Positions 12,190 to 13,788 of a DNA stretch of 32,511 nucleotides are shown here, piece after piece (the first letter of the stretch is position 1; each line of letters starts with the position of its first letter). The stretch is from an uncultured Clostridia bacterium (GTDB lineage Bacteria; Bacillota; Clostridia; Christensenellales; CAG-138). A program made the translations under genes and the position numbers. Under the pieces are notes generated by a model, which ran no database searches, was not told the DNA's origin, and saw only the letters and a list, made by a program, of their open reading frames with translations. The stretch spans positions 1 to 32,511 of the forward strand of contig CAMVGD010000017.1 of assembly GCA_947166925.1 (NCBI GenBank). The letters run 5' to 3'.

Positions 12190-12681
12190 GTGAAGCTTGA
12201 ATGGATGGGACCGCACCGTGAGATCGTCGAAGCGCTGATCCGCTACTGCAATATCTATGCGGGCGTATACCGCAAAGAAAAGATGAACTTCCGCGGGATC
12301 ACCTATTCCTACGCGCAGATCCAGGTCCTGGAGTATCTTCTGGAGAACGAGGAACGAAACGAGAACATGTCCTCGATCGCGCACCGTCTCGGCATTACGC
12401 GCAGCAATTTCACGAAGATCATTTCGCGGCTTTCCAACAAAGGACTGGTCGAAAAGGTCCGCATGCCCGGAAGCCGCCGCGATCTCAACGTGATCGTCAA
12501 CGATCTCGGCCGCGAGCTGTACGAGGATTATTCCAAAAGCATCCTGAAGCGTCATTTTGATCCGATGTTCCGCGATCTGGATAAGCTTTCTCCGGAGGAC
12601 CGCGTCCATGTCCGCGACGCGCTGTTTCACGCAATGCGCAACCGCAATGCGCAGCAGAACGCCGACCCGGACCGGAAGTGA
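12190..12681 (+). CDS. MarR-family winged-helix transcriptional regulator
   Basis: The 163-residue protein starts at GTG 12190, chosen because AAAAGGGGG lies 8 nt upstream and translation further upstream would cross the promoter. The central winged helix is visible as YAQIQVLEYLLENEE (helix 1-2), MSSIAHRLGITRSNFTKIISRLSNKGLVEKV (helix-turn-helix and start of the wing) and PGSRRDLNVIVNDLGRELY (wing). Helical dimerisation segments flank it on both sides. MarR proteins are usually repressors released by small ligands. The divergent hydrolase gene and palindrome make that gene the likely target, in addition to possible autoregulation. Confidence 0.9.
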   Translation: MKLEWMGPHREIVEALIRYCNIYAGVYRKEKMNFRGITYSYAQIQVLEYLLENEERNENMSSIAHRLGITRSNFTKIISRLSNKGLVEKVRMPGSRRDLNVIVNDLGRELYEDYSKSILKRHFDPMFRDLDKLSPEDRVHVRDALFHAMRNRNAQQNADPDRK

Positions 12682-12713
12682 CTGCGATTTCAACATATTT
12701 CCAAAATTAGGGG

Positions 12714-12742
12714 TTGACTTTTTCTGTACCCCATCGTATAAT
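12714..12742 (+). promoter_or_regulatory. Promoter of tRNA-Leu
   Basis: TTGACT (12714-12719), a 17-nt spacer and TATAAT (12737-12742) end 9 nt before the mature tRNA 5' end. This is a near-consensus strong promoter placed as expected for a tRNA gene. Confidence 0.85.
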
Positions 12743-12751
12743 AAATTTTGC

Positions 12752-12834
12752 GCGGCAGTGCTGGAATTGGCAGACAGGCACGTTTGAGGTGCGTGTGCGC
12801 AGGCGTATGGGTTCAAGTCCCATCTGCCGCACCA
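12752..12834 (+). tRNA. tRNA-Leu (anticodon GAG)
   Basis: The acceptor stem GCGGCAG pairs with CTGCCGC. The anticodon stem CACGT/GCGTG encloses the loop TTGAGGT with anticodon GAG at 12786-12788, reading CUC and CUU. The T arm is ATGGG-TTCAAGT-CCCAT. A longer variable arm is present, as in class II tRNAs. Discriminator A and CCA are encoded (12831-12834). The 3' end is repeated twice downstream. Confidence 0.95.
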
Positions 12835-12835
12835 A

Positions 12836-12872
12836 AAATAAATGACCATCCCTTGCGGATGGTCATTTATTT
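12836..12872 (+). terminator. tRNA-Leu terminator
   Basis: The 16-bp stem AAATAAATGACCATCC/GGATGGTCATTTATTT with loop CTTGC begins 2 nt after the CCA end. The A/T-rich base of the stem supplies the U-tract (TTTATTTGT). Confidence 0.85.
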
Positions 12873-12884
12873 GTATAGATGGAA

Positions 12885-13015
12885 GGGACTTGAAGGGCGA
12901 CGTCGTCCGTCCTGCGGACGGAAAGACGACGGAGCCACGGCTTTGCGGCGAGGCGATTCCGCACAGCGCGGAGCGCAAGCGGAAGACGCCGATTCCACAG
13001 CCGCAAAGAAGTCCC
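12885..13015 (+). repeat. Structured 131-nt element, copy 1
   Basis: The ends GGGACTT and AAGTCCC close a predicted outer helix. Inside are CGTCGT-CCGTCC / GGACGG-AAAG-ACGACG, a 9-bp helix CTTTGCGGC/GCCGCAAAG, and a nested hairpin made of GGCG/CGCC, TTCCGC/GCGGAA and GCGC-GGA-GCGC. The right end is shared with a copy of the tRNA T-arm strand, and the left end GGGACTTGAA is the exact complement of TTCAAGTCCC in the tRNA T arm. It may be a non-coding RNA, a processed tRNA-linked structure or a MITE-like repeat. Confidence 0.8.
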
Positions 13016-13039
13016 ATCTGCCGCACCAAAAATAAATGA

Positions 13040-13070
13040 CCATCCCTTGCGGATGGTATTTGTTTTTGAT
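13040..13070 (+). terminator. Duplicated tRNA-type terminator
   Basis: This second copy keeps ACCATCC-CTTGC-GGATGGT and is followed by ATTTGTTTTTG. The longer stem of the first copy is lost on the 3' side but a clearer T-run is present, so it still looks functional. Confidence 0.65.
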
Positions 13071-13081
13071 TTGAATAGGTC

Positions 13082-13212
13082 GGGACTTGAAGGGCGACGT
13101 CGTCCGTCCTGCGGACGAAAAGACGACGGATCCACGGCTTTGCGGCGAGGCGATTCCGCGCAGTGCGGAGCACAAGCGGAAGACGCCGATTCCACAGCCG
13201 CAAAGAAGTCCC
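13082..13212 (+). repeat. Structured 131-nt element, copy 2
   Basis: This copy has the same length as copy 1 with five substitutions and no indels (126/131 identical). Two substitutions (C12967 to T13164, G12975 to A13172) together turn one predicted C-G pair into T-A in the apical GCGC/GCGC stem. The others are a helix-end/bulge position (12921/13118), a linker position (12934/13131) and an internal-loop position (12963/13160). Confidence 0.8.
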
Positions 13213-13260
13213 ATCTGCCGCGATGCACTTTCCTTTGCGCCTGCGCGCATGAACGGGGGC

Positions 13261-13290
13261 TTGAAATGAATCGGGTGCGCATGCTATAAT
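13261..13290 (+). promoter_or_regulatory. Promoter of the hypoxanthine-DNA glycosylase gene
   Basis: TTGAAA (13261-13266), an 18-nt spacer and a perfect TATAAT (13285-13290) are followed after only 6 nt by the GTG start codon, so transcription should begin at or within a base or two of the start codon. Confidence 0.7.
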
Positions 13291-13296
13291 AACGCC

Positions 13297-13788
13297 GTGC
13301 AGCGAATCGAAATCGTTCATCCGTTCCCCCCGTTCTTTCGGGCGGATTCGCATATCCTGATCCTCGGCAGCTTTCCGTCGGTCAAATCCCGCGAACAGCT
13401 GTTCTTTTACGGGCACCCGCAGAACCGGTTCTGGCGTGTGATCGCCGCCGTGTTCGAGGACGAAACGCCCGTCTCGATCCCGGAAAAGCGTATGTTTTTG
13501 GAACGTCACCGCATCGCGCTCTGGGACAGCATCGGGCGCTGCACCATCGAGGGCAGCGCGGACAGTTCGATCCGCGACGTCGTGCCCAACGACCTTTCCG
13601 TCATCGTAAACGGCGCGCCGATCGCCGCGATCTTCTGCAACGGCAAACAGTCCTTTGACTGCTACATGCGGTATATCTATCCCGCGCTGCGTCGCGAAGC
13701 CTCCGTTCTCCCCTCCACCAGTCCCGCCAACGCCGCCTGGAGCTTCGATCGTCTCGCAGACGCGTGGCGCGTGATCCGTACCGTATAA
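13297..13788 (+). CDS. Hypoxanthine (deoxyinosine)-DNA glycosylase, UDG superfamily
   Basis: The 163-residue product shows the diagnostic N-terminus: HPFPPF, then ILGSFPSVKSRE and FFYGHPQNRFWRV, as in the family 6 uracil-DNA-glycosylase fold (HDG). It also has LWDSIGRC and the C-terminal LPSTSPANAAW motif, which corresponds to the substrate-loop region. Such enzymes excise hypoxanthine arising from adenine deamination. The GTG start is supported because HPF lies just after it, as in relatives, and no other start is available. No Shine-Dalgarno sequence precedes it, and the -10 box ends 6 nt upstream. Confidence 0.88.
   Translation: MQRIEIVHPFPPFFRADSHILILGSFPSVKSREQLFFYGHPQNRFWRVIAAVFEDETPVSIPEKRMFLERHRIALWDSIGRCTIEGSADSSIRDVVPNDLSVIVNGAPIAAIFCNGKQSFDCYMRYIYPALRREASVLPSTSPANAAWSFDRLADAWRVIRTV

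Follow-up and report, generated by a model that had tools for sequence, protein, structure and literature searches.

Tandem tRNA-linked repeats, possibly mobile, with ends that match their host tRNA in an uncultured Clostridia bacterium

What is the repeated, foldable DNA that stands directly behind tRNA-Leu(GAG) in an uncultured Clostridia bacterium of the CAG-138 lineage (Christensenellales), and why do its ends match that tRNA? The window, that is, the whole stretch of DNA that we analyzed, is 32,511 nt long (GenBank assembly GCA_947166925.1, contig CAMVGD010000017.1, positions 1 to 32,511). A sequence-only reading had described here a 49-nt stretch present twice in identical form and a third time as 16 nt, together with two foldable 131-nt elements. 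This layout is real, and its features are as follows.

12714..12742, + strand: sigma-70-like promoter of the tRNA (TTGACT-17-TATAAT), a consensus match only
12752..12834, + strand: tRNA-Leu(GAG); T54-63 is TTCAAGTCCC, and positions 57-76 lie at 12815-12834
12836..12872, + strand: terminator-like hairpin 1 (AAATAAATGACCATCC / GGATGGTCATTTATTT), a 16-nt inverted repeat, 100% complementary
12885..12894, + strand: anti-T 1, GGGACTTGAA, the reverse complement of tRNA T54-63
12895..13008, + strand: body 1, predicted hairpin arms between anti-T and tRNA copy (folding, consensus structure)
13009..13028, + strand: direct copy 1 of tRNA positions 57-76, including CCA (repeat comparison)
13029..13066, + strand: terminator-like hairpin 2, a copy of hairpin 1 with an altered 3' side (repeat comparison, terminator scan)
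13082..13091, + strand: anti-T 2, again GGGACTTGAA
13092..13205, + strand: body 2, inside a 140-nt repeat, 96% identical
13206..13221, + strand: direct copy 2 of tRNA positions 57-72 (16 nt, no CCA)

A tandem-repeat search recovered the array at 12815-13221 with a period of 197, 2.1 copies, and a score of 701. The 49-nt stretch starts with AAGTCCCATCTGCCGCACCA, covers most of the hairpin, and has identical copies at 12815 and 13009; its third copy, at 13206-13221, is the 16-nt one. The 131-nt elements (12885-13015 and 13082-13212) lie within the 140-nt repeat family. As the earlier reading had it, both start with GGGACTTGAA, the exact reverse complement of TTCAAGTCCC, and both end with AAGTCCC, a direct copy from the tRNA. 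The order within a unit is tRNA 57-76, terminator-like hairpin, anti-T, a 114-nt body, and then the tRNA from position 57 onward again. With two extra 5' nt included, the elements fold at -71.2 and -64.7 kcal/mol (z of -6.35 and -5.11), and none of 200 shuffles folds as well for either of them. The anti-T and the tRNA copy are able to form a 7-bp closing helix. The consensus structure, drawn from 18 units chosen for matching ends, has 29 pairs, 23 of them with changes on both sides. Scanning 12600-13400 for promoters and terminators did not list hairpin 1, and no other promoter-like site was found upstream of the array on the same strand. A minus-strand small RNA and a retroelement primer site were dropped, there being no minus-strand promoter-like site in 12600-13400.

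The open reading frames inside the array look spurious by eye. We searched five window proteins around the array against Pfam profiles and found a MarR-type regulator, a member of the uracil-DNA glycosylase superfamily, a glycosyltransferase, an acyltransferase, and an alpha/beta hydrolase; none of the five is an integrase. The glycosylase superfamily gene (PF03167, 13297-13788) is the one directly behind the array, and it has a promoter-like site of its own at 13261-13290, 40 nt past the last tRNA copy. Rfam gave no matches in the window at the gathering threshold and, in seven related loci at E up to 1, only tRNA, Gut-1, and sub-gathering matches. A plasmid origin was rejected: six plasmid records matched, with matches covering the tRNA part of the query.

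The same plan recurs in this genome on another contig, behind tRNA-Leu(TAA), with the inverted end GGGATTCGA and a copy from tRNA-Leu(TAA). Among its 42 distinct tRNA genes, six of which have less than 330 nt of sequence behind them, the carriers are Leu(GAG), Leu(TAA), Arg(ACG), and Trp(CCA); the Arg(ACG) unit has an imperfect anti-T, and the Trp(CCA) copy is shortened. A DNA search found relatives in 15 of 101 genomes, and a tRNA was called at 22 of the 28 loci scanned from it; L030 and L032 are chance matches inside genes. We then built a covariance model from 18 of the 22 located units, excluding three long ones and Arg. Used at E up to 0.01 with a short calibration, the model has matches in 79 of the family's 103 genomes, spread over 16 of its 26 genera, and a single genome can hold as many as 20; nearly all of these genomes are fragmented. 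The window's genome has seven matches with differing body types, among those listed two each on C17 and C49 and one each on C59 and C89. The 108 matches taken further, in 71 loci, are mostly best-scoring ones and no random sample; removal of four duplicate loci left 100. For 83 of these, a tRNA was called on the same strand no more than 700 nt upstream, so the proposed tie to tRNA genes holds, as does the proposal that the ends match or derive from the tRNA, and the element is not an ordinary dispersed repeat. In sister species it stands beside tRNAs at none, one, or more copies. Since the model finds it in so many genomes, and since a similar plan exists in the complete genome of E. coli K-12, an assembly artifact is unlikely.

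The 17 matches with no called tRNA, as far as they were inspected, look like interrupted or displaced tRNA sites. L099/L146 and L138 stand behind halves of tRNA-like sequence that went uncalled by ARAGORN; L102/L116 stands behind unrelated DNA whose end is a tRNA-like tail. At L019, L099/L146, and L014, uncalled tRNA-Leu-like genes are apparently interrupted near the anticodon, intron-like, and cognate units stand behind them. L082 (G000:C59:6480-6615) and L088 (G007:C28) have no tRNA in front; there, unrelated DNA ends in a CACCA-like tRNA tail immediately in front of the terminator, which would fit the integration of some larger element between tRNA and unit.

How closely do the ends follow the upstream tRNA? 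The fairer test is the one on the 83 model-matched units. The covariance model rewards pairing between anti-T and copy but has no knowledge of the tRNA upstream. If the register may shift by up to 3 nt, the anti-T has no mismatch in 10 to the T54-63 of the upstream tRNA in 54 units and one mismatch in 29. When 15 T-arms were compared, the cognate one alone fitted best in 79 of the 83 and shared first place in one. Tandem units are counted here; the 59 first units alone, which begin 42-66 nt past the tRNA end, give 37 without a mismatch and 22 with one. A table of 70 units places the start of the copy at tRNA position 57; permutation of this table gave a mean of 110.6 mismatches against 21 observed, a contrast biased upward, like the pair counts, because the table was picked for near-matching ends. 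The anti-T reaches position 54, while many units of the window's genus read GAC, not GAA, and so match 55-63. In the three first units behind tRNA-Thr, T55 is C and the anti-T carries the matching G (0 mismatches at position 55 against a permuted mean of 5.7, again in the set with near-matching ends). Among the 53 first units compared there are 20 kinds of tRNA, and each kind has a version that matches it.

The bodies, by contrast with the ends, are shared between different tRNAs. Ser(GCT) and Gly(TCC) in G123, and Arg(ACG) and Gln(CTG) in G042, have bodies that differ by 0.064-0.09 (identity about 91-94%), and both ends fit the module's own tRNA, with one mismatch in the Gly(TCC) anti-T of G123. 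Identity between such modules switches at the anti-T and at position 57. We compared 64 modules by body, after removing duplicates and bodies outside 85-140 nt. The nearest neighbor is from the same genus in 42 (shuffled mean, 12.4) and behind the same tRNA in 22 (shuffled mean, 2.8), and in 20 it is a same-tRNA module in another genome of the genus. Vertical descent or homologous exchange between same-tRNA modules therefore plays a part. Across the genus, Leu(GAG) is followed by body types A, B, or C (assigned by eye), by a decayed remnant, or by nothing, in 18 copies of which two are cut by contig ends; that of G004 may be a decayed site instead of a never-filled one. The only clear comparison of an empty with a filled site, made between species, comes from Val(CAC). 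In G009, GAAAAACGCAC..GTGCGTTTTTC follows the tRNA directly, giving a terminator with no module between, and in G006 a sequence similar by eye follows the copy, with the element and another terminator in between. Val(CAC) thus appears to be empty in one species and filled in another.

The first reading knew of no description of such an arrangement. A precedent does exist, in the tRNA-linked repeats (TLRs) of E. coli and the RtT RNA (RF00391). TLRs were first described in 1978 (Egan and Landy 1978; Rudd 1999; both via PMC8144298), and their function was still unknown in 2021; E. coli has 22 of them at ten loci, and their last 18-19 bp duplicate the 3' end of the tRNA or rRNA that precedes them (PMC8144298). 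In E. coli K-12, we found a TLR-type copy at 10 of 45 tRNA and rRNA genes examined (11 stretches, with matches to a next tRNA left out); our 12-nt copy criterion misses the copy of the rrfB (5S) TLR reported in PMC8144298. At lysV and lysQ, GATTCGAACCTGC (13 nt, the reverse complement of tRNA-Lys 49-61) stands at +50, after the terminator, and the copy stands at the 3' end; in the predicted fold this inverted segment pairs with the adjacent body, not with the copy. At lysV, the first 31 nt after the copy are also the first 31 nt after the tRNA. The inverted segment of tyrV complements 59-68; for the arg TLRs and the remaining lys TLRs, a search for inverted matches of 9 nt gave nothing.

The window's element stands directly downstream of a tRNA, its 3' ends copy that tRNA (20 nt, 57-76, in unit 1; 16 nt without CCA in unit 2), and its body occurs at several loci of the genome. 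Like E. coli TLRs, the family combines a structured body with a 3' end equal to that of the upstream RNA, and it shares with them tandem units, two-sided terminators at some loci, and bodies common to several loci. The reverse complement of the tRNA's own T-arm at +50 is a further likeness to lysV and lysQ, in a shifted register: the family matches T54-63 in all 83 units tested, and lysV/lysQ match 49-61. It also differs in lying behind 20 kinds of tRNA, outside the Enterobacterales, and in not matching the RtT model. That model gave no match in the window (gathering threshold) or in seven related loci (E up to 1), while E. coli tyrTV, the positive control, gave four. RtT, the tyrT/tyrV TLR, has the same closing helix between inverted segment and tRNA copy; its copy spans 58-76, its tandem units are 178 bp apart, and its inverted segment complements 59-68 rather than 54-63. 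The RrA/RrB/RrF sRNAs of the E. coli rrn operons belong to the TLR family, lie between dual terminators, and are transcribed by readthrough (PMC8144298), but they follow 5S rRNA, whereas the window's element follows a tRNA. Since the architecture is shared with K-12 and the RtT model is unmatched, the window's element is, as judged from sequence, a TLR by anatomy and not a member of the RtT sequence family. What seems new is the cognate anti-T, the family-wide spread, the shared bodies with fitted ends, and the occurrence of a similar architecture in other phyla and, with its register shifted, at lysV and lysQ of E. coli; the literature searched, in the parts available to us, does not describe these. 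For the cognate anti-T, that holds for the available text of PMC8144298, its supplement excluded, and the available parts of PMC3119063, PMC7657543, and PMC8040213 contain nothing bearing on it.

To look outside the family, we scanned named genomes with one T-arm sequence only, GGGTTCGAATCCC, followed by GGGATTCGAA 50-80 nt later. At least 118 stretches were found. Among the 155 matches listed, 70 are convergent tRNAs and 85 are non-convergent. A copy, counted when 11 or more of the 12 nt of tRNA 58-69 recur within 290 nt, is present in 55 of the 85 non-convergent matches listed (53 loci) and exact in 45, against 3.3% in a control with another match's tail. By record title, the carriers among the matches listed include Patescibacteria, Spirochaetes, Deltaproteobacteria, Desulfuromonadales, Geothrix, Omnitrophota, Verrucomicrobia, and many Clostridia. 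In 26 units from 24 chosen loci, the predicted folds have the anti-T and copy closing hairpin arms, and at one Spirochaetes locus (L290) three tRNA genes each have their own unit. The matches in Halorubrum (L211), Woesearchaeota (L239), and Gulosibacter (L267), with short or tRNA-like bodies, may be something else. Within the window's own phylum, a cognate pattern, TTCGAATCCC, one base longer than that used for the named genomes, matched none of 398 sampled genomes, and a general spread in the phylum was rejected. In the family, the same pattern matched 27 of 103 genomes and its reversed control none; the search therefore works, and the element is concentrated and patchy. The non-cognate pattern also matched 0 of 398 genomes, a control made uninformative by the equal result with the cognate one. 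Carriage by phages was likewise rejected, as no viral contig matched (only the TTCGAATCCC pattern was used).

How could one body come to carry ends that fit so many tRNAs? With modest confidence, we favor the view that the array in the window consists of two tandem units of a tRNA-linked, mobile-like repeat whose ends are copied from the host tRNA. Such an element would be a passenger on tRNA genes that has no gene of its own. On reaching a new tRNA, a body would take both ends from it, T54-63 in inverted and 57-76 in direct orientation, often with the terminator, so that the tRNA and its termination would be preserved. The direct 57-76 copies could later recombine with each other and so produce tandem units. 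If transcription from the tRNA promoter ran on beyond terminator 1, the product would be a structured RNA, closed where anti-T and copy pair. This RNA would have a tRNA-like tail at its 3' end, open to recognition by processing enzymes; for readthrough, there is a precedent in the three rrn TLRs of E. coli, whose transcription runs through the first terminator of two (PMC8144298).

Templating of both ends at insertion would account together for the cognate direct ends, the cognate inverted ends, and the shared bodies. We know of no enzyme for such an insertion and of no example of insertion in which the ends are templated by the target. The three observations could also be accounted for separately, by selection for anti-T pairing, by recombination at the direct end, and by conversion of the bodies. 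Several points count against the favored reading. None of the enzyme candidates tested tracks the module, gene conversion between long-resident units could be the source of the shared bodies, and the same-tRNA neighbors in 20 of 64 modules show that part of the body pattern is vertical or due to homologous exchange. The TTCGAATCCC pattern is missing from the 398 phylum genomes and the viral contigs, and the inverted segments of E. coli differ (lysV/lysQ 49-61, tyrV 59-68, none in arg and other lys). The clear comparison of an empty with a filled site is a single one, and in Gly(TCC) of G123 it is the copy and not the tRNA that the anti-T matches. We rate a mobile-like element with target-derived ends first, a trailer RNA second, and relics third; these explanations are not fully exclusive.

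A trailer RNA is a somewhat unlikely explanation, and the best of the alternatives. It would be a cis- or trans-acting regulatory RNA in the tRNA trailer, with ends kept cognate by selection for pairing. The anti-T would have two alternative partners, the T-arm of the tRNA itself (10 bp) and the copy downstream (7 bp), and the readthrough RNA would tune tRNA maturation or make an sRNA. The closing helix covaries, with 98.3% of cells paired against 85.1% in shuffles and 55 cells changed on both sides, figures biased upward because the 49 rows were chosen for matching ends. Pairs with both-sided change (23 of 500 shuffles reach the value) and further pair types (500 of 500) are not clearly above shuffles. 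Where copy and tRNA differ within 57-63, the anti-T agrees with the tRNA at 6-7 of 8 loci, by our reading of the table, the exception being Gly(TCC) of G123, where it agrees with the copy; the anti-T also matches T-loop base 55, which is absent from the copy. A trailer RNA would also be in line with the rrn TLR RNAs, which arise by readthrough and to which Hfq and CsrA bind in vitro, but a phenotype once ascribed to a tyrT TLR turned out to come from a reading frame close by (PMC8144298). That source also places rrn TLRs in Enterobacterales only, as of 2021. Further against a trailer RNA, a stable hairpin lies between tRNA and element in the first units: a spacer hairpin at -10 kcal/mol or lower is found in 52 of 52, against 17 of 52 mononucleotide shuffles, and 44 of 52 have a T-run. 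The presence of the element is patchy among species, and bodies more than 90% identical with both ends exchanged are hard to explain by selection alone.

The family could instead consist of homogenized relics, ancient TLR-like units at many tRNAs, whose bodies are converted and whose ends drift with the tRNA through recombination with it, with no current mobility or function. We consider this unlikely. The excess of same-tRNA neighbors (22 of 64) fits it, as do tandem duplication, decay, and absence at Leu(GAG), and the state of the last copies: of 53, 31 are of full length, 20 are of 13-17 nt, and two are shorter, with 16 nt or less in 19 arrays. However, conversion with the tRNA in the same orientation does not refresh an inverted 10-nt end, and yet that end is perfect in 54 of 83 units. 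The apparently empty and filled Val(CAC) sites also argue against relics.

An attachment remnant or a miniature integrative element, acted on by a tyrosine recombinase at the T-loop, is very unlikely. In attachment sites of the T-loop type, a direct repeat starts in the T-loop and runs to CCA; the repeat seen here, from T-loop position 57 to CCA, resembles them, and the disruptions at L082 and L088 look like integration between tRNA and module. The family differs in its inverted end, its units of about 195 bp, and its many tRNA targets per genome, each of the 20 kinds of tRNA having its own matching version, and we know of no role for an inverted anti-T in such sites. The small integrating element at an att site that the sequence-only reading offered is not supported here as one of integrase type: the units have no convincing gene, no integrase is among the five proteins around the array, and four mobility-related families do not track the element.

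The four families are TnpB, IS110, Y1 transposase, and reverse transcriptase. Against 79 of 103 family genomes with the module, a TnpB-type domain is over the cut-off in 7, IS110 is found in 5, and a Y1 transposase and a reverse transcriptase are over the cut-off in 40 and 33, so that none of them tracks the module. The window's genome has one Y1 transposase (C13), but the family is missing from some carriers, G001, G013, G014, and G021 among them. We therefore set aside an RNA-guided or transposase-driven element as far as these four families go. An RNA-guided element, in which a structured RNA with a 16-20 nt 3' tail would guide a TnpB-, Cas12-, or IS110-like protein to a TTC motif, is highly improbable: there is a scaffold with a 3' tail of tRNA sequence that begins right after the T-loop TTC, and the two segments read opposite target strands, but the Thr units carry TCC instead of TTC, and the reading is weakened because the candidate proteins are absent from most genomes.

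To return to target-derived ends, an element whose ends are written from any new host tRNA would fit any tRNA without harm. A wider idea is tentative, and we lean mildly against it: there might be a class of gene-less, tRNA-specialized mobile elements across bacteria, with ends written from the host tRNA and the E. coli TLRs as its enterobacterial branch. If the ends are instead kept by selection, the family points to a general tRNA-trailer RNA. A family with up to 20 matches per genome, a precise end rule, and a wide scatter makes origin and function testable: natural variants are plentiful, sites with and without the element can be compared, and cognate ends are a definite prediction.

Some loci hold additional elements. 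The units of L013, L028, and L033 are about 53-57 nt longer and have a similar extra hairpin (ATGGTACGCGCGGG...) within the body, behind three kinds of tRNA, Leu(GAG), Val(CAC), and Leu(TAA). At L024, three Gut-1 RNA matches (RF01706; 24-97, 265-338, and 540-613) alternate with copies of the tRNA-Val(CAC) tail in one array. Another dispersed element adjoins a tRNA CCA, with or without a TLR unit, and its first letters are CGTCG(T/C)CGCGG... or CGTCGAGTGG.... It follows the last copy at L006:1537-1760, L050, and L064 and the CCA at L039, L040, L066, and L070. Some of its copies have, at one end or the other, a stretch resembling CGAGTGNTGATAACGGAYTT or the reverse complement of it, like terminal inverted repeats.
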